Source: an uncultured Rhodospirillales bacterium (GTDB lineage Bacteria > Pseudomonadota > Alphaproteobacteria > ATCC43930 > CGMCC-115725). From it: a stretch of 64,000 nucleotides of DNA. The translations under genes were made by a program, and so were the position numbers. The notes under the pieces were generated by a model. That model was given only the letters and a program-made list of their open reading frames with translations, was not told the origin of the DNA and ran no database searches. Shown piece by piece: positions 509-17,389 of this stretch. The DNA is taken from contig CAIKMD010000006.1 in NCBI GenBank assembly GCA_903828515.1, positions 496,001 to 560,000 of the forward strand. The letters are read 5' to 3'. Within the stretch, counting starts at the first letter, position 1, and each line of letters starts with the position of its first letter.

Positions 509-2173
509 ATGATGCCGGATTGGCAATGCGAAGCGGACGTGGTGGTGATCGGTTCGGGCGCGACCGGATTGCCCGCCGCCATCGTCGCGCGCGAGGCCGG
601 CGCCTCGGTGATCCTGGTGGAGGCCCAGCCGCATATCGGCGGCCACGCGATGGTCAGCGGCGGCAACGTCGCCCTGGGCGGCGGCACCAGCGCACAAAAG
701 AAATACGGCATCGTCGACTCACCCGACCTGGTGTTCCAGGACCTCACCGACTGGAGCGTCGTCGAGCCCAACGGGTTTCCCGATTATCGCTACAACGACC
801 GCGAGATCATCCGCGCTTTCGCCGATTACAGCGCGCCGACCTATGAATGGCTCGCCGCGCATGGCGTGATGTTCATCGACGCGCCGCCCGACAAGCGCGG
901 CGGCAACGCGGTCGGCAATTCGGTGCCGCGCGAGAATCATCCGGCGGTCATGGACTGGGCGATGGTGCAGACCGGCAAGCCCGCGCGGCTGGAAACCCAG
1001 GCGACGCGCTGCTCGGGCAACGGCTTGATGCGCCCGCTCGAAGCCGCGGCTTACAAGGCCGGGGTCGAGATCATGCTCGAACATAAAATGACGGCGATCC
1101 ACCGCGAAGCCACGGGCCGGCGGCGCGTCACCGGCATCACGGTCGAGCATCGCGGCGCCGCGCTCGATATCCGCGCGCGCAAGGCGGTGATCGTCGCGAC
1201 GGGCGGTTCGACCGGCAATATCGAGTTTCGGCGCATGTTCGATCCGCGCCTGACCGAGGAATATTGCGGCCTCGCCGGGATGCCGTGGTCGGATCAGGAC
1301 GCGAGCGGCGAGATCGCCGCGATGGCGGTCGGCGCCTCGCTGTGGGGGCTTTACAACCAGACCGGCGAATTCGGCTCGGGCATCACCAAGCCGGGCAGCA
1401 TCGGCTGCCAATACGGTTACTGCCATCTTCATTGGGGCACCGGCAGTCCGATCTTCGATCGCATCCGCGCCACCGGCCTCGCGGTCAAGGACTGGCAGGA
1501 CCTGATTCTGGTCAACATGCTGGGCCAGCGCTTCTACGACGAGACGAGCGGACAATTCACCGCGAACAATCACGGCTCGATCGATCCCTATGTGCCGAAC
1601 GATTGGCGCAACGCGAGCGACATCGCTTATAAGCCGAACAATCTGATCAATGCCGCGATGGCCGGGATCGGCGATGGGCATAACGGCGGCGGGCCGATCT
1701 GGGCGATCTTCGATGCCGACGCGGTCGCGCGCGAGGAATGGAAGCCGGCGCCGCCTTATGTCGATATCGATGGGGGTTTCTTCTTCAGCGCGCCGAGCCT
1801 TGCCGAACTCGCTCAGAAGATCGTGATGAAATACCAGCGCGTGGCGATGCCGCCGCAAGCGCTCGAGGAAACCGTGAAACGCTATAACGGCTTCGTCGAT
1901 GCCGGCCGCGACGCGGATTTCGCCAAACCGAAGCCGCTGCACAAGATCGCCAAGGCGCCTTTCTATGCCGCCTGGGCGACGCCGGTCATTCACGACACGC
2001 GCGCGGGCCTGCGCATCAACGCGCGAACGCAGGTCGTCGACATGAACGGGAAGGTCATTCCGGGGCTTTATTGCGGCGGTGAATCCGCCGGCGGCTTCAG
2101 CCTGCACGGCCTCGCGCGCGCCGCCTGCCAGGGCGTGATCGCCGGTCAGAACGCGGCAAGCGAGGAATCATGA
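509..2173 (+). CDS. FAD-dependent oxidoreductase, fumarate reductase/3-ketosteroid dehydrogenase-like
   Basis: A 554-residue flavoprotein. The N-terminal Rossmann motif GSGATG is at residues 15-20 and an acidic E ends the second strand at 38. The C-terminus has the GLYCGGESAGGFSLHG pattern that closes the FAD site in the fumarate reductase/succinate dehydrogenase flavoprotein family, whose soluble members include ketosteroid dehydrogenases and urocanate reductases. There is no signal peptide, so a cytoplasmic enzyme is expected. Two adjacent ATGs (509, 512) follow a GGGGGG run; the second has the better spacing. The stop overlaps the next gene as ATGA, suggesting coupling to an SBP whose ligand may be its substrate (inference). 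Confidence 0.88.
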   Translation: MMPDWQCEADVVVIGSGATGLPAAIVAREAGASVILVEAQPHIGGHAMVSGGNVALGGGTSAQKKYGIVDSPDLVFQDLTDWSVVEPNGFPDYRYNDREIIRAFADYSAPTYEWLAAHGVMFIDAPPDKRGGNAVGNSVPRENHPAVMDWAMVQTGKPARLETQATRCSGNGLMRPLEAAAYKAGVEIMLEHKMTAIHREATGRRRVTGITVEHRGAALDIRARKAVIVATGGSTGNIEFRRMFDPRLTEEYCGLAGMPWSDQDASGEIAAMAVGASLWGLYNQTGEFGSGITKPGSIGCQYGYCHLHWGTGSPIFDRIRATGLAVKDWQDLILVNMLGQRFYDETSGQFTANNHGSIDPYVPNDWRNASDIAYKPNNLINAAMAGIGDGHNGGGPIWAIFDADAVAREEWKPAPPYVDIDGGFFFSAPSLAELAQKIVMKYQRVAMPPQALEETVKRYNGFVDAGRDADFAKPKPLHKIAKAPFYAAWATPVIHDTRAGLRINARTQVVDMNGKVIPGLYCGGESAGGFSLHGLARAACQGVIAGQNAASEES

Positions 2174-3099
2174 AACGCATCGCGATCGCGCTGCTCGCGT
2201 TTGGTGTAGGCGTGGCGCCGGCGTCCGCGGCGACGAAGATCAATTTTCTCTACAACGCCTCAGCTTCGTTCACCGCGATCTTCGTCGCGCAGGATCAAGG
2301 GTTTCTCGCCAAGCACGGGCTCGACGTCGAATTCTCGCTCGCGCAAAGCGGCGCGGTGATGCCGCCCGCGCTGCTCGCCGGATCGGCCCAGATTGCCGCG
2401 CCGACTGCCGCCGTCTTGGTGCAGGCGAGCGAGGAAGGCCTCGATCTCGTGATGATCGCGAACAGTTCGGCCTATCCGTCGCCGCCGCATTCCGATGGCG
2501 TGGTGGCGCGCACGGGAAGCGGGATCAAGGATGCGCGCGACCTCATGGGCCGCAAGGTCGGGCTGCCGAGTCTGGGCGGTATCTTCGAAGTGCTGATGCG
2601 CAAATGGGCGCAGACCAACGGCGCCGACGACCACAAAATTCAATGGGTCGAGGTGCAGATCCGCCAGATGAACGACGCACTCAAATCCGGCCTGGTCGAT
2701 GCGGTGGTGCCGGTCGAGCCGTTCTATAGCCGCATCGTCGATAGCGGCGCCGGTTACGACATCGGCGATTTCGAGGCGGTGGTTCCGGCCGGCACGACGC
2801 CGGTGCTCTATGCCGCGACGCGGGCCTGGGCGACCGAGAATGTCGCGGCGGTGCACGCGTTTCGCGCGGCGCTCGACGAGGCCATCGTGTTCATCCACGA
2901 CCCGATGAACAAGGAATCCGTGCGCGCCAGCATCGTGAAATACACCAAGCTGCCGCCCGAGGCGGCGGCGACGCTCGCCATCCCGAGCAATCTCGAAGTG
3001 AAGGCCCGACCCGAAAGCCTCGCCTTCTGGATCAAGACCATGCGCGAGCAGGGCATCACGCACGGCAATCCCGATCCGGCGAGCCTCATCGCGCCGTAA
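2170..3099 (+). CDS. ABC transporter substrate-binding protein, NMT1/THI5-like
   Basis: A 309-residue periplasmic binding protein. The signal peptide MKRIAIALLAFGVGVAPASA ends near residue 20. The mature N-terminus has the family's FTAIFVAQDQGFLAKHGLDV pattern, and there is a central KVGLPSLGGIFEVLMRKW segment like other NMT1 proteins. The gene overlaps the flavoprotein stop by four bases, so the two are probably co-translated. No permease or ATPase is adjacent, so it must share a distant membrane complex or act alone. The ligand is not predictable from sequence. Confidence 0.88.
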   Translation: MKRIAIALLAFGVGVAPASAATKINFLYNASASFTAIFVAQDQGFLAKHGLDVEFSLAQSGAVMPPALLAGSAQIAAPTAAVLVQASEEGLDLVMIANSSAYPSPPHSDGVVARTGSGIKDARDLMGRKVGLPSLGGIFEVLMRKWAQTNGADDHKIQWVEVQIRQMNDALKSGLVDAVVPVEPFYSRIVDSGAGYDIGDFEAVVPAGTTPVLYAATRAWATENVAAVHAFRAALDEAIVFIHDPMNKESVRASIVKYTKLPPEAAATLAIPSNLEVKARPESLAFWIKTMREQGITHGNPDPASLIAP

Positions 3100-3111: not shown

Positions 3112-4239
3112 TTATTCGGCCGGCAGGACGTACTCGGTCTCTTTCAGCGTCATCTCGAACTTGATCATCTTGTCGTCCGACCGGTCGCGCGAGACGTGAA
3201 GGGGGTCTTTGCCCGCGGCTACGGCGTCGATCGATTCACGCAGCTTGCGGCGCAGGATGACGATGCCGCGATCGGATTCGGCGAGATGCTCGCGCGTGCG
3301 GTCGGTGATGACGCCCTGGGTTTCCTGCGCGACGCGATCCTGTTCCATCGACGGAATGTTCCAGTATCCGTCGTCGACCCGGGGATAGACACCCGGCTGC
3401 TTGTTCGTGAAGCCCTGGTTCTCATACTCGAAGACGCCGTCAGCCTTCGGGAAGAAATTGATGACGTAGCTATGGGTCAGATTGTCGTCGATCGGTACGC
3501 GGAAACGCATGTCGTGGCTGGGCAGCACGCCGATGCGCGGCGTCGTCGAAATCCGCGAATGCGACGGCAGCACCATGTGAATGATGCGCGGCGGCATTGC
3601 CTCCATCTTGAGGATGCATTTGAAGCCGTAAGGCGTGTCTTCGTAGTCGTAGCCCTGCGGCGTCTTCATCGCCATTTTCGGATAGACGCTGGCATGGAGG
3701 AACGGCAGATGCGGCAGGTCGGCGCCGTTTTCGGCTTTCTGCAGCCAGTTGCAGTAATCCTCGTTGCAGGCGAGGACGCGTTTGCCGTCTTCGCGGAACA
3801 GCACGTCGTATTTCGGGAAAGCCGGCGCGGGCTTCGGGCCGATATAGGCGAAGGCGAAACCGCCGACATCGCGAATTTCATAGGCATTGGCGCAGACGCG
3901 ATCCTTGAACGTGCTTTCGGGACGCTCCGCCGGGGTTTCGAGACATTGTCCGTTCGGCGCGAAGAGCCAGGCGTGGTAGCAACAGCGCAGGCCTTCCTCT
4001 TCGACGCGGCCGTATTCGAGTGAGGTCAAACGGTGAGGGCATTGCAGATCGAGCATCCCCAACTTGCCCTTGCCGGTGCGGAAGACGACGAAGTCCTGAC
4101 CCAGCAGGCGGACTTTCACCGGACGGTCTTTGATATAATCGCTGAACTGAACCGGCCACCAATAGCGGCGCAGCATTTCGCCGCCCGGTGTGCCGGGGCC
4201 GACGCGGGTCATGATCTGGTTTTCGGCTTCGCTCAGCAT
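3112..4239 (-). CDS. Rieske [2Fe-2S] aromatic ring-hydroxylating oxygenase, alpha subunit (phthalate dioxygenase-like)
   Basis: A 375-residue oxygenase component. The Rieske cluster ligands are C67-x-H69 and C86-x2-H89 in QCPHR...RCCYHAW. The mononuclear iron site is D174-x2-H177-x4-H182 in the NWLQKAENGADLPH region. The single-chain layout matches the phthalate/vanillate/dicamba group rather than the alpha-beta naphthalene group. A GAGG Shine-Dalgarno precedes the ATG. No reductase or ferredoxin gene is nearby, so electrons must come from a distant partner. It converges on the SBP at 2170, ending 12 bases away, and is divergent from a TRAP SBP. Its substrate is unknown. Confidence 0.93.
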   Translation of the reverse strand: MLSEAENQIMTRVGPGTPGGEMLRRYWWPVQFSDYIKDRPVKVRLLGQDFVVFRTGKGKLGMLDLQCPHRLTSLEYGRVEEEGLRCCYHAWLFAPNGQCLETPAERPESTFKDRVCANAYEIRDVGGFAFAYIGPKPAPAFPKYDVLFREDGKRVLACNEDYCNWLQKAENGADLPHLPFLHASVYPKMAMKTPQGYDYEDTPYGFKCILKMEAMPPRIIHMVLPSHSRISTTPRIGVLPSHDMRFRVPIDDNLTHSYVINFFPKADGVFEYENQGFTNKQPGVYPRVDDGYWNIPSMEQDRVAQETQGVITDRTREHLAESDRGIVILRRKLRESIDAVAAGKDPLHVSRDRSDDKMIKFEMTLKETEYVLPAE

Positions 4240-4389: not shown

Positions 4390-5391
4390 ATGCGGTGTTG
4401 GGCGGTTGCGTTTGTTGCTGCGTTTTTAGCCGTCGGGTCCGCGCGCGCGGATGAGACGACGCTGATCTTCGCGACCGACGGTCCGCCCGACACGCATATG
4501 GCCGTGCGCGTGTTCCATCCCTGGAGCGATCACGTCAACGAAATCGCCAAGGGTGTCCTGAAGCTCGACGTGCGCGACGGCATGTCGATCGTCAATCCGA
4601 CGAATTTCTACAATCGCGTTCTCGAGGATGTGGTCCAGATCTCGTGGGGCAGCATCGGCAACCTGGCCGGTACTTTTCCGCTGACCGAATTCACCGCTCT
4701 GCCGTTCCAGGCCGAGCGCGCCGAGGACGCCTCGGTCGCCTATTGGCGCCTCTATAAGACCGGTCTTCTGGACGGGAATTTCAAGGACGTCGTGCCGATC
4801 ATGATGTCGATCTACACGCAGGAGGTCGTTCATCTGACCAAGCCGCCCAAGTCGATCGAGACCCTCGCGGGACTTCGTATCATGGTGGTCTCAAAAACGG
4901 CGTCGAACCTGATCAGCCGATTGGGCGGATCGCCAAGCTCGATCCCGTTGCCCGATCTGTATTCGGCTCTCCAGCATGGAACCGTGGACGGCACCTTGAT
5001 CGCGTGGACGGCGTTTCAACCGTATCGGCTCGCCGAGGTGACCACCTATCATTACGAGACCCAGCTTGGCGCTTCGCCGGGCATGGTCTTCATGGCGCGC
5101 AAGCGTTACGACGCCTTGCCGGCAACCGTGCGTAAAATCATCGACGAGAATTCCGGCGAAGCGATCAGCCGGCAACTGGGTAAGGCCCTCGACGAGTTGT
5201 CCGAGGAAGCAAGACTGAAAGCCAAGGCTCAATCCGGTCAGGTGGACGTCTTCGCGACCGAAGCGCAAGCCGCGAAATGGCGCGAACTGACGGCGCCGGT
5301 CACTGCGGCTTGGGTGAAGGAGACGCCCGGCGGCGAGAAAGTGCTGTCGACCTTCCGTCAGATTCTGGCCGATGTGAAAGCCGGCAAGTAG
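4390..5391 (+). CDS. TRAP-type substrate-binding protein DctP-like (orphan)
   Basis: A 333-residue periplasmic protein with signal peptide MRCWAVAFVAAFLAVGSARA. It has DctP-family landmarks: WRLYKTGLLD, the GLRIMVVSKTASNL segment, ALQHGTVDG, and a C-terminal helix ending LADVKAGK. In most DctP proteins the first of these positions reads G-L-K-x-R-V and the Arg binds the ligand carboxylate; here the Arg is Met. No DctQ or DctM membrane subunit is present. It is the first of three paralogs in this window, with those at 20826 and 54170. It is divergent from the Rieske gene, sharing a 150-base upstream region. Confidence 0.88.
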   Translation: MRCWAVAFVAAFLAVGSARADETTLIFATDGPPDTHMAVRVFHPWSDHVNEIAKGVLKLDVRDGMSIVNPTNFYNRVLEDVVQISWGSIGNLAGTFPLTEFTALPFQAERAEDASVAYWRLYKTGLLDGNFKDVVPIMMSIYTQEVVHLTKPPKSIETLAGLRIMVVSKTASNLISRLGGSPSSIPLPDLYSALQHGTVDGTLIAWTAFQPYRLAEVTTYHYETQLGASPGMVFMARKRYDALPATVRKIIDENSGEAISRQLGKALDELSEEARLKAKAQSGQVDVFATEAQAAKWRELTAPVTAAWVKETPGGEKVLSTFRQILADVKAGK

Positions 5392-5851: not shown

Positions 5852-6313
5852 TCAATGAACGGCGATATCGACAACCCGGTTCGCCGATGCGGCGACGTCG
5901 TTCGCGGTGGCCAGGTTTTCGCGGGTTTCCCCGGTCCAGCGCGTCTCGACCCGATCGGCCGACACTTTGCTGCCATAGACAAGAGCATCGCGCACGGTGT
6001 CCGCGCGCTGATGGGACAGATGCATGTTGTAGTCGTTGCCGCCGACCGTATCGGTCCTGCCGACGATCGTCGCCACGGATTTCGGATTGGCGCGCATGTA
6101 CGCGCTCAAATCGGCAACGATTTTCTGGCCGTTGGCGTCGATCACAAAACTGTTCGTATCGAAGTTGACGTGATACCAGATTGCCGAAGGCCCCGGCGCG
6201 ACCGGTGGCGGGTTCGAGGCAACGGCTTGCGGGGGTGTCTGCGTGCAGGCGCCAAGCGCGGAAACGACACCGATGGTTGCCAGGGTGCGCCATGAGATCA
6301 TGCGTTGCGACAT
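5852..6313 (-). CDS. OmpA-like peptidoglycan-binding lipoprotein
   Basis: 153 residues from the ATG at 6313, preceded by GGAGA. The lipobox SALGAC puts the lipidated Cys at 23, followed by a Pro-rich linker. The OmpA C-terminal domain spans about residues 45-153, with VGRTDTVGG, the YNMHLSHQRAD helix and the closing NRVVDI strand. These correspond to the peptidoglycan-binding Asp and Arg positions of the family. It lies 136 bases downstream of the hybrid kinase on the same strand. In YfiBNR systems an OmpA-like lipoprotein (YfiB) relieves YfiR inhibition, so this gene could have that part here (inference). Confidence 0.85.
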   Translation of the reverse strand: MSQRMISWRTLATIGVVSALGACTQTPPQAVASNPPPVAPGPSAIWYHVNFDTNSFVIDANGQKIVADLSAYMRANPKSVATIVGRTDTVGGNDYNMHLSHQRADTVRDALVYGSKVSADRVETRWTGETRENLATANDVAASANRVVDIAVH

Positions 6314-6449
6314 CGGTGTCTCCCAATCTGAGTATGAAAAGTTTTCGGCCCGTGCACATGGCACGTTGCCACGATCAAACCCTAGGGGCTGTGACGCTCA
6401 CCCGGATAGGATCGGAAACTACTCAGCGGTTCCGATGGCGGTGCGACGA

Positions 6450-8255
6450 TCAGCTTTCGGAATCGATGCTCAGAATCGATCGCATTTTCCGCCCCAATTC
6501 GGCGGCCGTGAACGGCTTGGTGATGAGCTCGACGCCCGGATCGAGCATGCCGTTATGCACGATCGCATTGCGCGCATAGCCGGTGGTATAGAGCACCTTG
6601 AGATGGGGCCAGCGGGCGTGTACTTCGTCGGCAAGCTGTCGGCCATTGAGTCCGCCCGGCAAGCCGACATCGGTGAAAAGAAGCTGGACGCCGGACGTGA
6701 CTTCGAGCAGCCGCAGGGCAGCCCGGCCATTCTCGGCTTCGATCACGCGGTAGCCCAAATAGCGCAATGTTTCGACCGTGAAGGTGCGAACGTCGGGGTC
6801 GTCCTCCACGACGAGAATAAGGTCGTGGATGGGGCCATCATGGGCGTGCGCGGCATGCTCGGAACTTTCATCCTCGTGGAGTTCGCCAATAATCCGCGGC
6901 AGGTAGAGCTTAACCGTCGTGCCCTGGCCGACCTCGCTATAGATGGCGACATGTCCGCCGGACTGTTTGATGAAGCCATAGACCTGCGACAGGCCGAGAC
7001 CGGTACCGTGACCGATGTCCTTGGTCGTGAAAAACGGATCGAAGGCCTTTTCCATGACCTCTTTCGTCATGCCGGCGCCGGTGTCGGTGACGGCGATCGA
7101 GACATAAGGTCCGGGCTTCATGCCGTCATGCAACGACGCATATGATTCATCGAGAAAAGCGTTGGCGGTCTCGATCGTCAGTTTGCCGCCGCGCGGCATC
7201 GCATCGCGTGCATTGACGGCCAGATTGAGCAGCGCGTTTTCGAGCTGGTTGGCATCCGCCGAGGCCCGCCAGGCGCCGCCGCTGAGCACGGTTTCGATCT
7301 GAATCGATTCGCCGAGCGTGCGATGGAGCAGTTGCGACATACCGCTGGTCAGTTTGTTGACATCGATGGGTTTGGGTTCGAGCGGCTGCCGCCGTGAGAA
7401 GGCGAGCAATTGCTTGGTCAGGGTGGCGGCGCGCTGACCGCCATGCGTCGCCCGCTCGATATATTGCCGTAAATTCTCGGGCGTTGCCTTTCCGCTTTCG
7501 AGCCTGTTTTGGGCAACCGAAAGATTGCCGAGAATGATCTGCAGCAGATTGTTGAAATCGTGGGCGACCCCGCCGGTGATTTGTCCGATCGCCTCCATTT
7601 TCTGGACCTGGCGCAGCGTCTCTTCCGCTTTTTCGCGCTGAACGATCTGGCTCTGAAGCTCGTTGTTCGCATCGGCGAGCGCACTGGCCCGGAGTGCAAG
7701 CTCGTCATTCGCCCTTTTGAGCGCGGATTGCGCGATCGCGAAAACGATGACGACGAGGAGCGTCAGCAGGACGAGCAGGCCGAACACACCATAGCGTTCC
7801 AACCGGGTCGCGAGCGGCTCGGCGACGGCCCGCAGATAGACCATGCCGAGCCGGCGGCCATCTTCCACGATGGGAATGGTCGCGATCAGCCGGCCCTGTT
7901 CGAGATGGGTTCCGGGCGGCGGCGCCGTGGTCGGCAAGGGCTCCTGATCGCCGCGCACGAAATTCGCGAACAGCGCTCCTTTGCTGTCATAGACGGCGAC
8001 GACGTCGATTTGCGCGTTCACGCGCAGCGCATTCACGTATTCCTGGGCGGCGCCCGGATCGTCGAAATCGAGCGCGGCGGTAACCGTCGACGCCAGAATT
8101 CGCGCCTCGACCTCGACCTCGGCGATGCGCTGACTCTGATAGGAGCGTTCGCTGTAGAGGGCGATGACCAGGCCGGCGAGCAACAGAACTGCCGCGCCGG
8201 CAGGCCCGATCAGCGGCGTGAGCTTGACGAAGCTCCAATTCGATCGGTCATTCAT
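6450..8255 (-). CDS. hybrid sensor histidine kinase/response regulator with CHASE8-like periplasmic sensor
   Basis: 601 residues. TM1 is about 13-34, a periplasmic domain 35-156, and TM2 about 157-176. The coiled linker leads to a HisKA with H232 in GGVAHDFNNLL. HATPase follows with N348, DTGAGM 391-396 and GTGLGLS 418-424, and a C-terminal receiver with acidic residues E484-D486, phospho-acceptor D529 and K580. The periplasmic part resembles the CHASE8 sensor of YfiN diguanylate cyclases (judged by eye). It sits 18 bases downstream of the YfiR-like gene and is probably co-transcribed with it and the TonB receptors. No HPt or output regulator is in the window. Its signal is inferred to be relayed by YfiR. 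Confidence 0.92.
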   Translation of the reverse strand: MNDRSNWSFVKLTPLIGPAGAAVLLLAGLVIALYSERSYQSQRIAEVEVEARILASTVTAALDFDDPGAAQEYVNALRVNAQIDVVAVYDSKGALFANFVRGDQEPLPTTAPPPGTHLEQGRLIATIPIVEDGRRLGMVYLRAVAEPLATRLERYGVFGLLVLLTLLVVIVFAIAQSALKRANDELALRASALADANNELQSQIVQREKAEETLRQVQKMEAIGQITGGVAHDFNNLLQIILGNLSVAQNRLESGKATPENLRQYIERATHGGQRAATLTKQLLAFSRRQPLEPKPIDVNKLTSGMSQLLHRTLGESIQIETVLSGGAWRASADANQLENALLNLAVNARDAMPRGGKLTIETANAFLDESYASLHDGMKPGPYVSIAVTDTGAGMTKEVMEKAFDPFFTTKDIGHGTGLGLSQVYGFIKQSGGHVAIYSEVGQGTTVKLYLPRIIGELHEDESSEHAAHAHDGPIHDLILVVEDDPDVRTFTVETLRYLGYRVIEAENGRAALRLLEVTSGVQLLFTDVGLPGGLNGRQLADEVHARWPHLKVLYTTGYARNAIVHNGMLDPGVELITKPFTAAELGRKMRSILSIDSES

Positions 8256-8273
8256 GTCCGCTCTCGTCGCTCT

Positions 8274-8840
8274 CTACGGTCGCGCATTCACGGCCAGGCT
8301 CAATAATTTGGAACTGATTCCGAGTTTGTTGTCACTCGCGGCGTTGGGATTGATCTCGAACCGGACGCGATTATCGGCAAGCGCGAAATTGATGATCCCC
8401 TTCGCCGCGGCATTGGATGCCGAGTCGGTGACCGTCAGGACCGGCGAACCGCGAACTGCGTTGATCGTCTCGGCCACGGCGACCGGATCGGTGCTCCCGA
8501 CATACATGATGTGACAGCCGGTGTTGCGGTCGACGGTGCGGAGGCGCCGCACCACGATGGCGCGATTGCCGATCTGCTGGCCCGCGACGGCCTGGTCGAT
8601 CAGCGGTCCGAACGGATCGCTGCCGACGATACAGAGGTTGATCGGACTCTCCGCGGTGGCGAAAGCGGCATCGGGCCACGTGACGAACGGCGCGAATTTA
8701 TAGAGATAGGTCGCCTTGATGGCGTATTCGAGGGAAGCGTTTTGCGCGCTCGATACCATGCTTGAGGCAAGCAGCAGGACGGCGGCGACAAGCGCTGTCG
8801 TTCCGGCTCGAATCAATATTTTCCAGCGCGCGGACGGCAT
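8274..8840 (-). CDS. YfiR-like periplasmic protein (DUF4154)
   Basis: 188 residues with an N-terminal hydrophobic signal (about 10-32). It has the DUF4154 pattern YAIKATYLYKFAPFVTWP, then INLCIVGSDPFG, GRxIVVRR-like and CHIMYVGS, with a C-terminal INFALADNRVRFEIN strand. Two cysteines (C70, C109) could form a disulfide, as in YfiR of Pseudomonas aeruginosa, which represses the diguanylate cyclase YfiN in the periplasm. Here the gene is packed three bases after a TonB receptor and 18 bases before a hybrid kinase with a YfiN-like sensor. A role as periplasmic adaptor between receptor and kinase is the natural inference. Confidence 0.88.
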   Translation of the reverse strand: MPSARWKILIRAGTTALVAAVLLLASSMVSSAQNASLEYAIKATYLYKFAPFVTWPDAAFATAESPINLCIVGSDPFGPLIDQAVAGQQIGNRAIVVRRLRTVDRNTGCHIMYVGSTDPVAVAETINAVRGSPVLTVTDSASNAAAKGIINFALADNRVRFEINPNAASDNKLGISSKLLSLAVNARP

Positions 8841-8843
8841 TCG

Positions 8844-10781
8844 TCAGAAGCTCCGCCGCAATCCGAGCATGACGCTGCGGGGAATCTTGTTGTAGACGCT
8901 GAAGCCGTTCTGCGCCTCGTAATGATGGTCGTGAACGAGGTTCTGGCCGGTGAGCGACAATTCGAGCTCGGGGGTCGCCTGCCACGCCACCCGCGCATCC
9001 GCTTCGAAATAGGCCGGCAGATGAGCGAGGGCGAGGCTGCCGACCTGCCGCAAACCGACGTAGAAATTGAAGCTGTCTCCGAGCTGCCAATAAGAGCGGA
9101 GGAAAAGCTGATGGCCGGGATCGATGCCCTGCGCCGTCTGGATGCCGGCGACATCGTTGCCGCCCGGTTTCACATGCAGCGATTTGCGGATGAACGAAAC
9201 GCCGGGTGTGAGACGCCACCAGGAGAAGGGTTTGTACTCGCCCCAGACTTCGCCGCCGACCGTATGGCCTTGCAGCGAGTTCGCGAAGAGGCCGACGGGT
9301 GCGCTGCCGCCGGTCAGGGTCGTCGTTCGGATATCGGTGTATTCGTTGTAGTACAAGGAAATCGACAGCGATGCCTGGTCCGAGAACTGCGTGCGATAGC
9401 CGGTCTCATAAGCGATCAGCTTTTCCGACTGGAAATTCGGCGACGGTCCGAAGAACGGCGGCAGCAGAACCAGATTGCGGTCCAGCCGCGATGGCGTTTC
9501 GACGGCGCGCGAGACCGAGGTCCACAGGAGGTTGCGCGTGTTGACCTGCCAAGCCAGCCGCGCGCTCGGCAACGGCTCGAAACCGCTGAAAGTGTTGTAT
9601 TCGAGCTTCGTGCCGAGGGTCAGCTTCAAGTCGTCGAATATCTTGATGGTGTCCTGCGCGAAGACGTTGCTCAACGCGAGCGTCTGATTCCCCGGAACGA
9701 TGGTGGCGACCGGGCTGAGCGGGGTGAATTTGTCGCTCCAGACGCGTTGTCCGACACCCCACACGACCTCGTGCCGTTCGGCCAACGGGATGACATGCTG
9801 GAACTGAATGTCGAAAGTATCGACATTGTCGAGGACGGCGTTGTTGGGCTGCTCGTCGGCGCGGTCGTAATAGCTTTGCAGTTCGAAGGTCGAGCCGTTC
9901 GCCAGGCGCCGGGACCAGCGGCCCAGGATATTGCCGCCATTGGCGCGGCCGCCGATGTCGAATTGATTCTCATAGGCGTCGCCCTGGAAGCTCAGCGTAT
10001 CGACTTGCCCGTTCCAATCCGTGCGAAAGCCGACCTGCCGGCCGTTCCAGCCGTCATTGGCATTGCCGCCGGTACTTCTCAGATCGGTGTCGCCGCGGCC
10101 GAACCCCATCGCATAGGCGCGATAGGTACCGTTCGTTCCGAATTTGCCGCCCCAGCGGCCGGACCCGTTTTGATCGAAATTGCCGGCTTTCAGGTCGACC
10201 AGCCCGCCCTGCGTGTCGGCGGAATTTTTGGTGATGATGTTGATGACGCCGTTGACCGCGTTGGCGCCCCAGAGGGTGCCGCCCGGACCGCTGATCACTT
10301 CGATACGCTCGACATCGGCCAGCATCACATTCTGCTGGTTCCAATTCACGGCGTGGAAGAAGGGCGAGTAGACCGTCCGGCCGTCGATCAGCACCAGCAA
10401 CTTGTCGGCGGCATTGGGCGAGTTGAAGCCGCGCGCCGAGATCGTGTAATCCTGCGAATTGATCCGCGCGACTTCGAGATTGGGCGCGAGACGCAGCGCC
10501 TCGGGCAGACTCGCGGCCCCGGAATTGCGAATATCGTCGCCGGTAATGACGTAAACGGCCGCCGACGCCTCGCTGAGCGCTTCGGGACGCTTCGAGACCG
10601 AGGTGATCTCGATATTCGACAGGTCCTCGATCGAGAGATTCTTCAGTTCTTCGAGCTGGGAGATTTCGCCGGCATGCGCGGCGGTACTCATCGCCGTGAT
10701 CGTCGCCAGAACGATCAGGCTGTCGCGCAAACGACGTGCGGCCGAGGCGTTGTACTTTCGCTGTTCCCCGTATCCCCTCAT
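8844..10781 (-). CDS. TonB-dependent receptor
   Basis: 645 residues from the ATG at 10781, with signal peptide ending near AHA. A short ISQLEELKNLSIEDLSNIEI extension leads into the plug domain, with VYVITGDDIRNSG, LVLIDGRTVYSP and VERIEVISGPGGTLWG. The plug is followed by a 22-strand-type barrel that ends in the outer-membrane signature aromatic Phe (LGLRRSF). The open frame extends further upstream, but that part belongs to the preceding receptor; the true start lies five bases after that gene's stop. It is part of a tight minus-strand operon with yfiR-like and kinase genes. The ligand is unknown; no TonB or ExbBD is nearby. Confidence 0.93.
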   Translation of the reverse strand: MRGYGEQRKYNASAARRLRDSLIVLATITAMSTAAHAGEISQLEELKNLSIEDLSNIEITSVSKRPEALSEASAAVYVITGDDIRNSGAASLPEALRLAPNLEVARINSQDYTISARGFNSPNAADKLLVLIDGRTVYSPFFHAVNWNQQNVMLADVERIEVISGPGGTLWGANAVNGVINIITKNSADTQGGLVDLKAGNFDQNGSGRWGGKFGTNGTYRAYAMGFGRGDTDLRSTGGNANDGWNGRQVGFRTDWNGQVDTLSFQGDAYENQFDIGGRANGGNILGRWSRRLANGSTFELQSYYDRADEQPNNAVLDNVDTFDIQFQHVIPLAERHEVVWGVGQRVWSDKFTPLSPVATIVPGNQTLALSNVFAQDTIKIFDDLKLTLGTKLEYNTFSGFEPLPSARLAWQVNTRNLLWTSVSRAVETPSRLDRNLVLLPPFFGPSPNFQSEKLIAYETGYRTQFSDQASLSISLYYNEYTDIRTTTLTGGSAPVGLFANSLQGHTVGGEVWGEYKPFSWWRLTPGVSFIRKSLHVKPGGNDVAGIQTAQGIDPGHQLFLRSYWQLGDSFNFYVGLRQVGSLALAHLPAYFEADARVAWQATPELELSLTGQNLVHDHHYEAQNGFSVYNKIPRSVMLGLRRSF

Positions 10782-10786
10782 TTGTT

Positions 10787-12739
10787 TCAAAATCCCGCGC
10801 GTAACCGCACCATCACCGAGCGGGGGATTTCCCGTCCGGGAAATGCCGCCGGGTCGGCAACTTCCTGGTGTTGAGGATGCAGAAGGTTGAGGCCTTCGAG
10901 CGATAGCTCGAGCGCGTTCGTCATGTGCCAGCCGATCCGTGCGTCGGCCTCGGTATAGGCGGCGAGGAGCGAATGAGCCGGGCGGCCGACCTGGCGTAGC
11001 GCGAGATCGAGCTCGACGGTCGGCGAGACATTCATCTCCGACCGCAGTTGCGCCTGATAGTGCGGGTCCTGGCCCAGCGCCTGGAACTGCGTGATATCGG
11101 TATTGCCGGGCTTGAGATGGTAGTGCTCGGTCAAGGCGCTCATGCCGGGCTTCAGACGCCACCAATCGAAGACGTTGTAGGTCGCCCAGGCCTCGACGCC
11201 GTAACTCGTTCCGGTCAATCCATTGCCGAGTCTGACGGGGATGACGGCGGTCGACGAAACGCTGTTGTCGGTCCTGATGTCGTCGTAAACGTTGTAGAAG
11301 GTCGCGATGGAGACCGACAGACGATCCAGCGGCTGCGCGCGGAATCCCAATTCATAGGCCGTCAATTTTTCCGATTGGAAGTTGGGCGCCGGAATCAGAA
11401 TGCCGCCGCCCTGAAGTTCCCGATCGATCCGCGACGGCGTGCGGACCGCACGCGACACCGCCCCCCATAACAACGAATGATCGTCGACCTGCCAAGCCAG
11501 CCGAAGATTGGGCAGCGGATCGAAGCCGGAATAGCTGTTGTATTCGCCCTTGATGCCAAGCGTGAGCTTCAGGTCGGGTAGAAGCGCGATCTCGTCCTGC
11601 GCGAATCCATTGGCCAGCGTGATGGTCGAATTGGGCTTCGCGAAGAAAAAGGCTTGCGACGATACCAATCGATCCTGCCACATCCGGCCTTCGACGCCCC
11701 ACACGATCCGGTGGATGTTCCACACCGTGAAATCTTGCTGGGCCTGAAGATCGAACGTCTCGAGCGCTTCCCGAAGGCCCACTTGCGACGCATCGTCCTG
11801 ATTGTAGTAAGCCTGGATTTGTGCGGTCGATCCGTTGTCCAACGCGTGCGTCCAGCGCCCCAGCAGGTTTCCGCCCGTGCGTTTGTAGGCGAGGTCTTAA
11901 ACAGCGTTCTCGTAGGCATCGCCCTGTACCGTGAAGCTATCGGTGCCGGCGTTCCCGTCGGTGCGGAAGCCTGCCTGCTTGCCCTGGAACCCGTCATGCC
12001 GCCGATCCGTCGTCGTCGCGGGATGTGTGGCGCCGCGGTCGAAGCCCATGACGTAAGCGCGATAGGTCAGGTTGTCGTTGACCTTGCCGCCCCACCGCAA
12101 ATTCCCTTCTTTGTCGGCGTTGCCCCCGCCGATATCGACCAATCCGCCCTGTGTGTCGTGCGAGTCGCGCGTGATGATATTGATCACGCCATTGACGGCG
12201 TTCGCGCCGTAGAGCGTTCCGCCCGGTCCGCTGATCACCTCGATCCGCTCGACGTCGGCGAGCATGACGTTCAGCGATTCCCAATAGACCTGACCGCCGA
12301 GCGGCGAATAGACGGTGCGGCCGTCGATGAGAACGAGAAGCTTGTCGGCGGCCTCGATGGAATTTGATCCGCGGGCCGAGACGGCATATTGGTAAGCGTT
12401 GACCTGCTGCACATTGAGGTTGGGCGCGAGCCGCAACGCCTCGGGAAGGCTGACCGCGCCGGACCGGCGGATATCGTCATTGGTAATGACAAAGACCGCG
12501 GCCGGTGCCTGGCTCAACGCTTCGGGCCGTCGCGAGACCGAGGTGATCTGAATATTCGAGAGATCCTCGATCGAGAGGTTCTTCAGCGCGTCGAGCTGCG
12601 AGATTTCGTTCGCATGGACGGCCGTCGCCAGGGTCGCGACGACGACAACGACCGGCGCGCCGCGTCTGAATAACGCCGCGATCGCGAGCGATGCGAAAGG
12701 CCGGGCTTTCCCACGGATAGTACGCAGCTTTCGCCGCAT
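10787..12739 (-). pseudogene. TonB-dependent receptor interrupted by an in-frame TAA
   Basis: A paralog of the downstream receptor, 651 codons from ATG 12739 (preceded by GGGGGAA). It has a signal peptide ending AVHA, a plug with VFVITNDDIRRSG and VERIEVISGPGGTLYG, and a full barrel ending VRLRAGF. After QGDAYENAV the codon at 11899-11897 is TAA; the frame then continues without a shift as DLAYKRTGGNLLGRW, which aligns with the intact paralog's segment ending RANGGNILGRW. One base change therefore truncates the protein after the plug and first strands. It could be a real nonsense mutation, a read error or a recoded codon. Annotators may list two CDSs (11897-12739 and 10787-11842). Confidence 0.85.
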
Positions 12740-12947: not shown

Positions 12948-13487
12948 CTAGGCCGCCTTATCGACCGGTGCGCCCTTTTTGAGTCGATGACCCGCGAAGG
13001 TGCGGGTTTGCGGCGCCGGCAGGCCTTCGCTTTTGAATTTCTCCATCAACGCGTCTTTGCGTGCCTGGAGGCGCGCGCCGAGGTCCTTGAGATCGATGCC
13101 GGCCGCGCGGGCTTCCGCGAACAGGCCCTCGGACCGCATCTCTTCTTCATGGACGTGGTGTTTGATCTGCTCGGACAGGACTTTGACTTTGGCGTCGTAA
13201 AATTCATCGTCCGGGCTGCCGGCCTCGATTTCGGCGATCAGCACCTTGGCGCCGTCATGCTCGACGTAAGCTTCATCCATCTTGTCGTCTTCGACGGCGC
13301 CTTTGCAGGCCGGATAGAAGATCTCTTCCTCGATCATCGTATGGATCGTCAGCTCGGTGCAGATTTGCTTCGCCAGCGATTGTTTGCGGTCGGCGCTCTT
13401 GGCGGATTCGAATTTCTCGAACAGGCCTTCGACCTTGCGGTGATCGGCTTTCAACAGGGCGATGGCATCGGGTTGGGCGGCGGTCAT
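12948..13487 (-). CDS. hemerythrin HHE cation-binding domain protein
   Basis: 179 residues from ATG 13487, preceded by GGAGAG (an earlier ATG at 13499 overlaps the ribosome site). A four-helix bundle carries the expected carboxylate and His ligands: KADHRKVEGLFEKFE, HTMIEEEIFYPA, AYVEHDGAK and HHVHEEE. This is a di-iron hemerythrin-like domain, usually involved in oxygen or NO/iron sensing in bacteria. The tail is Lys-rich and uncharacterised. The gene is monocistronic and lies downstream of the PRC-barrel gene, separated from it by a strong terminator hairpin. Confidence 0.9.
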   Translation of the reverse strand: MTAAQPDAIALLKADHRKVEGLFEKFESAKSADRKQSLAKQICTELTIHTMIEEEIFYPACKGAVEDDKMDEAYVEHDGAKVLIAEIEAGSPDDEFYDAKVKVLSEQIKHHVHEEEMRSEGLFAEARAAGIDLKDLGARLQARKDALMEKFKSEGLPAPQTRTFAGHRLKKGAPVDKAA

Positions 13488-13550
13488 TGGTCTCTCCATT
13501 CAGCGGGTGCGCTAAGAACGTCCGGTCGCCCGTTCCGTTCCACCGCACGG

Positions 13551-13989: not shown

Positions 13990-14220
13990 TGTTTTCTCCA
14001 GGGTGATTGGATTTTTGCGAGAAGGTGCGGCCCATGTGAGCCTGAGTAACCCGCTTCTCCGGCGATAGGTTGCAGGCGTCCGGTGGGCAATTTCGCCCAT
14101 ACGGTGAACGAGGCGACACATCGGCGGCGCCATCGCCGCAATCGTCTTGCCGTGGAAACTTGGCAAATCTAAGCTTCGGGAAATGGCGTGAAACGCCGGG
14201 TTTCGTCAGGGGGAAACACA

Positions 14221-15165
14221 ATGTCGATTCGCTACATTGCCGTTTGTGCTGCAGTACTCCTTGCGCACCCCGTCGCGACGCGCGCCGACGATCATCTTCG
14301 CGTCGGGAAACCGGACGCGACCGGCTTCGACTTCGCGATCCTGCAAGTCGGCATCGATTCGGGCATTTTCCCCAAACAAAAACTCGAGATCGAAACCGTG
14401 ACGCTCTCGGGGAGCGCGAAGCTGCACCAGGGCATGATGTCGAACGGAATCGATATCGCGCTCGGCGCCGGAACGGATTTCGCTTTCATCGCCAAGGGCG
14501 CGCCCGAAAAGGGCGTGGCGGCGATGGCCGGGGCGCCGTTGAACATCGCGGTGCTGGTGCGGCCCGACGGATCGATCAAATCCGTGGCGGACCTTAAAGG
14601 CAAAAAAGTCGGTGTCAGCAGCCTTGTGTCACTGACCTATTGGCTGGGCCAGCAATTGTCGCGCCGCCAGGGTTGGGGCAATGACGGTCTGGTCTTCGCC
14701 GAAACCGGCAGCGGCCAGGGCAGCATGGCGGCGCTGGTGTCGGGCAGCATCGACGCGATGGTCGGCTCGCTGGAGGGCGGCCTCGCGTTGGAAAAGGACG
14801 GCAAGGCCAAGGTCCTCGCCACGTTCGGCTCGATCGATCCGTTCCTCACCCACATGATATCGGCGACGAACGAGGTGATGACCAACAACCCCGACGCGCT
14901 GCGGCGTTTTCTCAAAGGCTGGTTCGCCACCGTCGTCTATATGAAGGAACACAAGGACGACGCGATCCGTCTCTCACGCACGGTCACGCAATTGCCGCCT
15001 GACATCGCCGACAAGGTCTACGACATCGAAATGCCGATGTATTTCACCGACGGGCATTTCGATCCGAAGGCGATCGAGGTGGCCAAACAGTCGATCATCG
15101 ACACCGGTCAGGCAACGACGATGCCGGACAACAAAGTCCTCTTTACCGAGGAATTTCTGAACTGA
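14221..15165 (+). CDS. ABC transporter substrate-binding protein, NMT1-like
   Basis: 314 residues from ATG 14221, preceded by AGGGGGAA. Signal peptide MSIRYIAVCAAVLLAHPVATRA. The mature protein opens with KPDATGFDFAILQVGIDSG and continues IALGAGTDFAFIAKGAP, DLKGKKVGVSSLVSLTYWL and DNKVLFTEEFLN. This is the periplasmic two-lobed NMT1/TauA fold. It closely resembles the SBP at 56505 (same MSNG/KGAP logic), so the two are probably paralogs. It is convergent with the CDC48 gene. No cognate permease or ATPase is nearby. The ligand is unknown. Confidence 0.88.
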   Translation: MSIRYIAVCAAVLLAHPVATRADDHLRVGKPDATGFDFAILQVGIDSGIFPKQKLEIETVTLSGSAKLHQGMMSNGIDIALGAGTDFAFIAKGAPEKGVAAMAGAPLNIAVLVRPDGSIKSVADLKGKKVGVSSLVSLTYWLGQQLSRRQGWGNDGLVFAETGSGQGSMAALVSGSIDAMVGSLEGGLALEKDGKAKVLATFGSIDPFLTHMISATNEVMTNNPDALRRFLKGWFATVVYMKEHKDDAIRLSRTVTQLPPDIADKVYDIEMPMYFTDGHFDPKAIEVAKQSIIDTGQATTMPDNKVLFTEEFLN

Positions 15166-15178
15166 AACGCGCGCGGCT

Positions 15179-17389
15179 TTAAGAGGTCTTTTCGGGCGCG
15201 CCGAATCCTTCGTGCGATTTCAATTCGCCGGCGAGCGCCTGGAGCGCGTGCTCCAGTGTCGGCGGCGCGGCCTGGGTAAAGCCGGTGCCGCGAATCGCGA
15301 TGCGCTTGGCTTCCTGGCAGAGCTGACGCAGACGCGCGCCCGAGAACCCTTCGGTGCGGGCCGCGAGCGTGTCGGCGATGCCGTCGAGCGCAACGGTGGT
15401 TCCGGTCTTGCCGCCGAGATGGAGACGGATGATCGCGCGCCGGTCCGCCAAGTCGGGCAGGGGCACATGAATATGCACGCCGAAACGGCCGGGTCGCAGG
15501 ATCGACGGATCGACCAGGTCGATCCGGTTGGTCGCGCCGATGACGATGACCCGCGAAAGTTGTTCGACGCCGTCGAGTTCGGCCAGCAATTGATTGACCA
15601 CGCGCTCGGTCGTCATCGAGCCGTCATGTGCGCCGCGGATCGGCGTGATCGAATCGAGCTGATCGAAGAAGATCACGGTCGGTGCGACCTGGCGCGCGAT
15701 GCGGAAAATCTGGCGCACGCCTTCTTCGGATTCGCCGAGCCATTTGGAAAAGATTTCCGGCCCGTCGACGGCGATGAAATTGACGTCGCATTCGTTGGCG
15801 AGCGCCTTCGCCAACAGGGTTTTGCCGGTGCCGGGCGGTCCATAGAGCAGCGCGCCGACATGCGGCGTCAGGCCCATCTCCGATAGAAGCTGGGGATTGC
15901 GCAACGGCTGTTCCAGCAGTTCCTTCAGTCGTTCTTTGACCGAATCGAGTCCGCCGACATCGCTCCAGCGCACGTCGGGCACGGTGATCAGGGTTTCGCG
16001 CATCGCCGATGGGCGAACCTGACCGACCGCGGTCTCGAAATCCTTGCCGTCGACACGCAGATTCGTCATGTCGATGCGGAAAGCGGCTTTCGGATCTTCG
16101 AGATTAAGCGTGCTGCGGCGCAGGGCGTTGAGGCCCGCGTTGCGGCACAATTCCATCAGATCGGCGCCGACGAAGCCGTGGGTGCGGCGCGCCACTTCGT
16201 CGAGCGCGACCTGCGCGTCTTCGGTCAGCGGCATCTCGCGGGTCTGGATCTCGAGAATCTCGCGGCGTCCCGGCGCATCGGGGGGACCGACGAAAATCTC
16301 GCGATCGAACCGGCCCGGACGGCGGAAAGCGGCGTCCACCGAATCGATGCGGTTGGTGGTGCCGATCACGATCACGGAATCGACCCGCGTCAGCCCGTCC
16401 ATCAGCGAGAGCAGTTGCGTGACCGCGCGAATGTCGGAATGTGCGCCGGTCTCGCCGCGTTTGGGTGCAAGTGCGTCGAGTTCGTCGATGAAGACGATCG
16501 ACGGCGCGTGGTGCGATGCCTCGCCGAAGATGCGGCGCAGATTGCCTTCGGTCTCGCCGGCATAGGTGCCGATGATGTCGGGGCCGTTGATGTAATAGAA
16601 CTTCGCCTCGACCTCGTTGGCGACGGCGCGCGCCAGATGCGTCTTGCCGGAGCCCGGCGGCCCGTAGAGGATGATGCCGCGCGGCGGATTGATGCCGAGC
16701 TGGCGATAGACATGCGGAAATTTGAGCGGGAGCTGGACCAGTTCGCGTACCAGCTTGATCTGACGACCGAGCCCGCCGACATCTTCGAATGTAACCTCGA
16801 ACGTGCCCTGGGGCACGTGCTCGTCGACATAGTGGAGTTTGACCTCGGTCTCTTCGGTGATGTAGCCGGCGCCGTCCGGCAACCGATGGACCTCGTAAGT
16901 CGTCCCGGCCTGCGTGCCGGGAAATGAGATATAGAGTACCGCGCCGACGCTCAACGGCGTCCGGTTCTCGATCAGAACCTGTTTCAGATGGGGAACGAGC
17001 TGGTGCGCGGTCGAGACGTCGATCGCCGGTGTGAGTTCGAGCCGCGGTACCGGCTTCACCTCGACCGGCTCGATCTCGATCGTCTCGTTGAGATGGGCCT
17101 TCAATGCCTGACGCAGGAAGCGATCCATGCGCACCACGCCGCGCCCGGCATCGGCGGCGAGCGGTTTGTCCAGCCGCGCGAGGATGGAGCGGCCACGTTC
17201 GGTCGCGACCCGGACGATCTCGTCCACCGCGAGACCATGGTCGTGCATCAGCGTCCCGTCGACCGCGATCAGCAGACGGCTCGCCGTCGAGTAGTCGTTC
17301 GACAGATGGTCGACCGTCGCCTTGAAGCGGCGGCGCGGATGCGCGTGAACGTGATCGTGGTCGTGATGGCCGTGGTCGTCGTGCGGCAT
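15179..17389 (-). CDS. CDC48/VCP-family AAA ATPase with two AAA domains
   Basis: 736 residues. An unusual His-rich tail (8 His in the first 17 residues) precedes a CDC48-type N domain to about 200. The D1 domain has Walker A GPPGSGKT 243-250, Walker B D302-E303 and the FRRPGRFD arginine-finger region. D2 has Walker A GPPGTGKT 517-524, but its Walker B reads IFFDQLD: the catalytic Glu is Gln (Q577), encoded by CAG. By analogy with engineered E-to-Q mutants, D2 may bind but not efficiently hydrolyse ATP. The family unfolds or remodels proteins. It starts 34 bases after a cupin gene on the same strand, so they are likely one transcript. Confidence 0.93.
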   Translation of the reverse strand: MPHDDHGHHDHDHVHAHPRRRFKATVDHLSNDYSTASRLLIAVDGTLMHDHGLAVDEIVRVATERGRSILARLDKPLAADAGRGVVRMDRFLRQALKAHLNETIEIEPVEVKPVPRLELTPAIDVSTAHQLVPHLKQVLIENRTPLSVGAVLYISFPGTQAGTTYEVHRLPDGAGYITEETEVKLHYVDEHVPQGTFEVTFEDVGGLGRQIKLVRELVQLPLKFPHVYRQLGINPPRGIILYGPPGSGKTHLARAVANEVEAKFYYINGPDIIGTYAGETEGNLRRIFGEASHHAPSIVFIDELDALAPKRGETGAHSDIRAVTQLLSLMDGLTRVDSVIVIGTTNRIDSVDAAFRRPGRFDREIFVGPPDAPGRREILEIQTREMPLTEDAQVALDEVARRTHGFVGADLMELCRNAGLNALRRSTLNLEDPKAAFRIDMTNLRVDGKDFETAVGQVRPSAMRETLITVPDVRWSDVGGLDSVKERLKELLEQPLRNPQLLSEMGLTPHVGALLYGPPGTGKTLLAKALANECDVNFIAVDGPEIFSKWLGESEEGVRQIFRIARQVAPTVIFFDQLDSITPIRGAHDGSMTTERVVNQLLAELDGVEQLSRVIVIGATNRIDLVDPSILRPGRFGVHIHVPLPDLADRRAIIRLHLGGKTGTTVALDGIADTLAARTEGFSGARLRQLCQEAKRIAIRGTGFTQAAPPTLEHALQALAGELKSHEGFGAPEKTS

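Follow-up and report, generated by a model that had tools for sequence, protein, structure and literature searches.

How could a receptor in the outer membrane inform a histidine kinase in the inner membrane? The question is raised by a run of same-strand genes in a 64,000-nucleotide stretch of DNA from an uncultured Rhodospirillales bacterium (hereafter the window), in which two genes for TonB receptors are followed by genes for a YfiR-like periplasmic protein and a hybrid histidine kinase with a CHASE8 sensor. To our knowledge, outer-membrane receptors have few known routes for informing the cytoplasm, chiefly FecA-FecR. We consider it probable, at roughly 70%, that the window genes encode an outer-membrane-to-kinase relay running from TonB receptor to YfiR to CHASE8 kinase, with the receptor in the slot that YfiB occupies in the YfiBNR system. 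If true, this would be a second general outer-membrane-to-cytoplasm route, in which both the outer partner and the output can be exchanged while the YfiR-CHASE8 core stays the same.

The assignment of the central protein (8274..8840, minus strand) to DUF4154/YfiR had been made from the letters alone in an earlier analysis, the sequence-only reading, and was borne out by profile search (153 bits, cut-off 24.9). The protein also exceeds the cut-off of the YfiR-like TOL_0243 family, NF053591 (161.1 bits, cut-off 125), and stays below that of NF053586, the model for YfiR proper (44.5, cut-off 85). Its structure model (predicted local distance difference test score, pLDDT, 94.4) has YfiR crystal structures as its first Foldseek matches (E 4.5e-10), with template modelling scores of 0.68-0.78 against the 15 YfiR chains that head the match list. 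The named best sequence matches come from a Caulobacterales metagenome-assembled genome (MAG) and other alphaproteobacterial MAGs, and the bacterium's own genome holds one YfiR match and one CHASE8 match.

The kinase (6450..8255, minus strand) carries CHASE8 (residues 46-141), HisKA, HATPase_c and Response_reg domains by Pfam. That its sensor is a CHASE8 domain, as previously proposed, holds at 61.4 bits against a Pfam cut-off of 27; the model of this domain has a pLDDT of 92.8, with a WalK model as the top row of its matches and CitA periplasmic PAS chains among the best rows. Pfam detects no GGDEF output in this protein, which has HisKA-HATPase_c-Response_reg instead. What we take to be the H, N and G boxes and the receiver motifs are present, and for the kinase part the PRK13557 and CckA models score best, both below their own cut-offs.

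Both receptors belong to the TOL_0244 family and contain Plug and barrel families by Pfam, a scan that found no STN domain in either. Receptor 2 (8844..10781, minus strand) is intact (NF053590 722.9 bits, cut-off 645). Receptor 1 (10787..12739, minus strand), which is 53% identical to receptor 2 over 649 columns, matches family positions 2-602 of 604 with 712.6 bits when a stop is read through. This single in-frame TAA, at 11897-11899, leaves the gene as assembled in two pieces and points either to a recently formed pseudogene or to an error in the assembly. If the first start is used, the frame extends to 12760; the TAA is codon 288 of that longer frame and its own stop is codon 658. The intergenic gaps along receptor 1, receptor 2, yfiR and kinase are 5, 3 and 18 bases. 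The gene list of the sequence-only reading, with all families on one strand at these gaps, stands, except that receptor 1 is broken and the OmpA-like gene at the end of the list is more loosely attached. Between 5600 and 13000, patterns that resemble promoters or terminators are no commoner than in shuffles.

Is this arrangement more than an accident of one genome? NF053591 was searched in four overlapping genome samples: relatives (matches in 7 of 61 genomes, 4 over cut-off with the own genome included, and none in the sibling species), the class (22 of 387 matched, 13 over cut-off), the phylum (84 of 397, 19 over cut-off) and the class of genome G632, which belongs to the same phylum (63 of 377, 27 over cut-off). 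A chosen part of these matches plus seven loci from named genomes gave a neighborhood set of 149 loci including the window, with 155 yfiR genes; the survey profiles were built from window proteins, and distant receptors may be missed. The module is present in named alphaproteobacterial, methylococcal and Bacteroidales MAGs and in many genomes of the window's phylum. Because a CHASE8 gene lies within 400 nucleotides downstream of 118 of the 155 yfiR genes, the TonB-YfiR-CHASE8 arrangement is more than chance, and the co-location of these families in other genomes, on which the sequence-only reading depended, was confirmed. A TonB receptor lies within 4 kb of 110 yfiR genes, in 87 cases within 700 nucleotides upstream on the same strand and in 23 elsewhere.

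Both ends of the module vary. The 118 CHASE8 proteins carry a kinase with receiver (65), a kinase (33), GGDEF (18) or neither (2), and Pfam found GGDEF-EAL outputs in L105, L110 and L119. An HPt gene directly follows the kinase in L006, and REC-cyclase or REC-HD regulators lie downstream in L094, L101 and L067. Other occupants of the slot upstream of yfiR are RTX/cadherin-type proteins, a barrel-like protein that is small and not a TonB receptor, and a PD40-OmpA protein. The RTX/cadherin-type surface protein genes are directly upstream of yfiR in L071, L073, L075 and L078, and yfiR is in tandem in L071 and L073. Seven natural YfiR-kinase fusions occur among the 155 yfiR genes (two scanned by Pfam): in L121-L126 and L260 the YfiR domain is fused to a histidine kinase with no CHASE8 match, and L121-L126 lack both redox cysteines discussed below.

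As controls, 20 low-scoring yfiR loci were examined within 4 kb. In eleven, yfiR is followed by a CHASE8-GGDEF gene and then an OmpA gene; TonB is absent from all of these, and the detection of an OmpA gene in them indicates that the OmpA profile detects YfiB. The others have TonB with CHASE8-GGDEF (3), a CHASE8 kinase (2), CHASE8-GGDEF alone (2) or yfiR alone (2, one at a contig end). Counting TonB receptors within 4 kb and same-strand OmpA genes within 3 kb, the 175 yfiR genes of both sets divide into TonB plus OmpA (1, the window only), TonB only (112), OmpA only (13) and neither (49), with a Fisher p of 5.7e-6 that ignores relatedness and leans on the controls picked for low scores; within the 155 alone, an OmpA gene accompanies 1 of 110 genes with TonB versus 2 of 45 without. 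TonB and OmpA genes are rarely together beside yfiR. Locus L276, from a relative that belongs to the window's taxonomic order (G039), has the classical arrangement of yfiR, CHASE8-GGDEF and OmpA genes.

The link between YfiR and CHASE8 is visible at two levels. The YfiR-binding site proposed for YfiN is AAVVF (PMC3375315), as that article describes it, and its counterpart in the window kinase is AALDF, the phenylalanine being Phe64. This phenylalanine is kept in all 118 CHASE8 proteins beside yfiR and in 15 of 18 control sequences, the remaining three having gaps. Aligned CHASE8 domains (n=52) all match HK_near_YfiR_like, and 51 match the DgcN/YfiN model, at E 0.001. On the YfiR side, many conserved residues fall, by our own mapping, in the N-terminal helix and C-terminal region, described as the partner-binding surface of Pseudomonas aeruginosa YfiR (PMC4655355).

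The second level is the covariation of tree distances. Over 36 complete sets, partial rank correlations were 0.66 for YfiR-CHASE8, 0.42 for YfiR-TonB, 0.08 for YfiR-kinase and -0.02 for TonB-CHASE8; over 67 sets, with one set per locus and short domains dropped, they were 0.43-0.49 for YfiR-CHASE8, about 0 for YfiR-kinase and 0.35 for TonB-CHASE8. YfiR distances covary with CHASE8 and not with the kinase domain once CHASE8 is allowed for, a useful internal control since CHASE8 and kinase share one protein. A complete TonB-YfiR-CHASE8-kinase chain, drawn from the 36 sets, was rejected: its TonB-YfiR link was lost in the 67 sets and only YfiR-CHASE8 was kept.

If YfiR reads the receptor, what might it read? 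We found that a short N-terminal segment of yfiR-linked TonB receptors, with the consensus DLTDLSIEELMNIEV, recurs in two unrelated groups of upstream surface proteins, and we regard it as a candidate YfiR-docking motif. In receptor 2 the candidate motif is ELKNLSIEDLSNIEITSVSKRP (residues 45-66; 10584..10649, minus strand), which scores 39.5 on a position-specific scoring matrix; in receptor 1 it is ALKNLSIEDLSNIQITSVSRRP, starting at residue 58 of the frame that extends to 12760, with a score of 36.1. The 15-residue matrix was built solely from 48 pattern-found segments among 109 yfiR-linked receptors, whose scores, training rows included, have quartiles of 14.5, 29.9 and 35.5 and a 5th percentile of -4.7. 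For non-TonB N-termini the 99th percentile is -1.8 and the 99.9th is 9.0. The segment lies just before the plug in TonB receptors, near the mature N-terminus of the barrel-like protein and, in two copies, in three RTX-type proteins (those of L073 and L075 and one protein of L078). In the receptors it runs into a TSVSK stretch that is absent from the other motif proteins and may be the TonB box.

Applied to the 5041 non-TonB open reading frames (ORFs) of all loci, the matrix placed five of its ten best scores directly upstream of yfiR (hypergeometric 1.3e-7, for a directly-upstream class of 73 ORFs with spurious ones included, in a test prompted by prior sight of sequences in loci without TonB). 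These five, L246 (21.5), L073 (18.4), L075 (15.2), L078 (10.5) and L119 (9.1), fall into two unrelated groups, a barrel-like protein of 350-380 amino acids and the RTX/cadherin-type proteins, so the independent count is two. The barrel-like group has a single weak PF13557 match in L119 and none in L120 or L246. The rest of the top ten are another RTX/cadherin protein of L073, a MotA protein (L212), a yfiR ORF (L247), and ORFs of L098 and L248, the last with no Pfam match over cut-off. The motif is not carried by the PD40-OmpA proteins of L006 and L008, by the upstream protein of L071, which is truncated at its start where the contig ends, or by the second RTX protein of L078 (maximum -3.7), and L120 scores 4.5. 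The idea that the linker of YfiB is the same element as the receptor motif found no support, the 11 control YfiB linkers scoring -27.1 to -4.4.

The matrix was also run on 30 TonB receptors with the best Plug scores from 15 genomes, each in the frame of its Plug match. Three yfiR-linked receptors scored 40.1, 35.2 and 7.1, and 27 unlinked ones at most 1.0, where unlinked means not near an NF053591 match and covers mostly distant families rather than close relatives away from yfiR. Among 20 fresh loci (640 ORFs; a yfiR ORF in 19 of the loci), TonB receptors take the first 17 places, with scores of 14.1 to 41.9. Linked receptors of L316 (-14.6) and L330 (5.8) and receptor fragments of L315 and L318 score low, as do unassigned upstream ORFs of 116-267 amino acids (at most -9.3) in four fresh loci with TonB elsewhere and in L326, which has no TonB. 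No clear surface partner other than TonB receptors was present in the fresh loci, and the cross-family claim therefore rests on the original loci. A wider idea, which we hold tentatively and at somewhat less than even odds, is that YfiR is a general periplasmic adaptor that reads outer-membrane and surface proteins through a short linear motif of approximately D-L-x-x-[LF]-[SGD]-[LI]-[EDQ]-x-L-[LMA]-x-[IL], each partner thereby reaching the same CHASE8 sensor, itself wired to kinases, GGDEF-EAL proteins or other outputs, with the window as the TonB form. The candidate segment makes the idea of a second general signalling route directly testable and is the part worth a bench test.

In the relay that we favor, the TonB receptor would sense or import a ligand at the outer membrane, and its periplasmic face, probably the N-terminal segment before the plug, would control YfiR. 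YfiR would in turn dock on the kinase in the inner membrane, at its CHASE8 domain, and set the activity of the kinase, similar docking of P. aeruginosa YfiR on the PAS domain of YfiN having been proposed. The kinase would then phosphorylate its own receiver, from which the phosphate would move to partners whose genes lie elsewhere; the TonB receptor would take the place of YfiB in YfiBNR. The protein families, their conserved order, the kept CHASE8 phenylalanine, the YfiR-CHASE8 covariation and the rarity of TonB and OmpA genes together are observations, whereas we infer the sign of YfiR (as a repressor), its binding to the receptor, the ligand and the target genes.

Several observations weigh against this relay. 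The kinase matches NF053592 (HK_near_YfiR_like) over residues 21-170 with 110 bits (E 1.2e-31), below the cut-off of 194. Neither an HPt nor a response-regulator gene was seen beside the window kinase, and the seven Hpt matches in the own genome are all in open frames of at least 719 amino acids. Receptor 1 is interrupted by its in-frame stop. The module is spread patchily, with 4 of 61 genomes over cut-off, the own genome among them, and the sibling species negative; 30 of the 155 yfiR genes have no CHASE8 directly downstream, and 45 have no TonB receptor near. In the 67 sets the TonB-YfiR correlation was -0.04 for the plug alone and 0.13 for the barrel alone (-0.22 and 0.25 with both in the model). 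Linkage can also yield covariation, and the distances are saturated (means 2.6-4.2).

Could YfiR and the kinase instead be a sensor complete in itself, responding for instance to redox or to the state of the envelope, with the TonB receptor as no more than a co-expressed client or target gene? The cysteines give this possibility some substance. C70 and C109 of the window YfiR align with C71 and C110, the redox pair of P. aeruginosa YfiR as described in PMC4655355, and among 72 sequences both are kept in 56, one in 2 and neither in 14, the last including six YfiR-kinase fusions. At the structural pair C145/C152 the window YfiR has no cysteine, and no column with at least five cysteines occurs there in the 72 sequences. 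A redox pair kept without the structural pair, the 45 yfiR genes lacking a nearby TonB receptor and the weak TonB-YfiR covariation in the 67 sets are all in keeping with such a sensor. Against it stand the TonB gene directly upstream of 87 of 155 yfiR genes, the rarity of TonB and OmpA genes together and the N-terminal segment common to unrelated upstream proteins. We regard it as fairly unlikely.

A periplasmic binding protein that hands its ligand to a kinase has precedents in TorT-TorS and LuxP-LuxQ, and TonB receptors are transporters. On these lines, YfiR would be a small-molecule binder that presents a TonB-imported ligand to the kinase, and the receptor would only transport. YfiR does resemble periplasmic binding proteins, as noted in PMC4655355, and Foldseek returned 3lft with L-Trp at a weak E of 0.059; weak binding of vitamin B6 and L-Trp by P. 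aeruginosa YfiR is described in PMC4887326. Import, however, is not expected of the RTX/cadherin-type, barrel-like and PD40-OmpA proteins found in the upstream slot, and the common N-terminal segment suggests contact instead, so that we consider this explanation unlikely.

The sequence-only reading held that the periplasmic logic of YfiBNR seems kept. In full, this would make the OmpA-like lipoprotein (5852..6364, minus strand; PF00691 64 bits; likely start ATG 6313) a YfiB that titrates YfiR, with the TonB receptors adding ligand input. The gene does occupy the yfiB position of the control loci, being the first one behind CHASE8 and in the same orientation. Its product scores 41.3 on NF053585 (YfiB), cut-off 128. 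On a profile of the 11 control YfiBs it comes 14th among 18 OmpA domains from its own genome (two of 20 matches having been left out). By eye it is without the YfiB-type linker present in those 11, and its best-scoring match outside its own genome, among 41 genomes searched, is 38% identical. It is separated from the kinase by 85 bases with a GTG start or 136 with the likelier ATG, and since the own genome has 20 OmpA matches, 19 above cut-off, a chance OmpA neighbor is easy to come by. Same-strand OmpA genes lie near yfiR in 3 of 149 loci; besides that of the window, OmpA genes within 5 kb are directly upstream without TonB in L006 and L008 and on the opposite strand in L209 and L232. The identification as YfiB was rejected on score, outside match, rank and linker; despite the control-like position (11 of 20 loci) full YfiBNR logic is highly improbable, and the lipoprotein is probably a neighbor outside the module.

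Two Bacteroidales loci, L006 at 6542-11775 and L008 at 6428-9474 onwards, have an OmpA-domain gene immediately before yfiR and also encode a CHASE8 hybrid kinase. In L006 this gene is PD40-OmpA by Pfam and the HPt gene begins 2 nucleotides after the kinase; in L008 a 116-residue ORF of similar size stands at the position of the HPt gene. These loci may be a Bacteroidales version with a peptidoglycan-binding outer partner.

How much of the TonB-YfiR-kinase set was known? Yfi is described as 'widespread and highly modular' by Malone et al. 2012 (PMC3375315), who report that yfiB is missing from nearly all of the more divergent operons, that GGDEF-EAL pairs, Hpt domains or sensor kinases often stand in for the GGDEF output, and that the Thauera module has a hybrid kinase. 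These divergent modules share with the window YfiR, a YfiN-like sensor, a kinase output and the absence of yfiB; on the side of differences, the word TonB has 0 occurrences in the main text of that article. NCBIfam names a linked trio, NF053590 (TOL_0244 receptor), NF053591 (TOL_0243 YfiR-like) and NF053592 (HK_near_YfiR_like), of which the window passes the cut-offs for receptor and YfiR and falls short on the kinase (110 versus 194), although residues 21-170 match; the window also has tandem receptors, one of them interrupted. No study of the TonB-YfiR-kinase set was found in the literature, judged by titles and the start of abstracts. The swap of kinase for cyclase was already known, and the TonB partner was known to annotators. 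The sequence-only reading had not recognized the combination as characterized: kinase outputs on YfiR/YfiN-like modules were published in 2012 and NCBIfam names the trio, whereas the lack of a study of the full set stands. What that reading observed is a known but unstudied kind of locus, with the OmpA component wrong and one gene damaged. The leads that are new here are the co-presence of TonB and OmpA genes in the window only (n=175 yfiR genes), the candidate docking segment and the YfiR-CHASE8 covariation.

YfiBNR itself (TpbB/DgcN; P. aeruginosa, Escherichia coli) resembles the window in the YfiR fold, in CHASE8 with its conserved Phe and in an adjoining gene for an outer-membrane protein. 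It has a diguanylate cyclase and YfiB where the window has a hybrid kinase and a TonB receptor, and the window YfiR lacks the Cys145-Cys152 pair. In FecA-FecR a TonB receptor signals at the outer membrane by way of an anti-sigma factor. The window likewise would have a TonB receptor as the outer-membrane signal source, but no STN domain was found in its receptors, and a periplasmic adaptor and kinase replace the anti-sigma factor.

Around these genes, a hemerythrin HHE protein (12948-13499) is encoded in the same orientation, shortly before the receptor genes. The flanks contain two NMT1-like binding proteins, a Rieske-domain protein and a TRAP-type DctP binding protein (2170-3099, 3112-4239, 4390-5391 and 14188-15165), and 15179-17389 encodes a CDC48/VCP-type AAA ATPase with two domains, whose CDC48_N match stays below cut-off.

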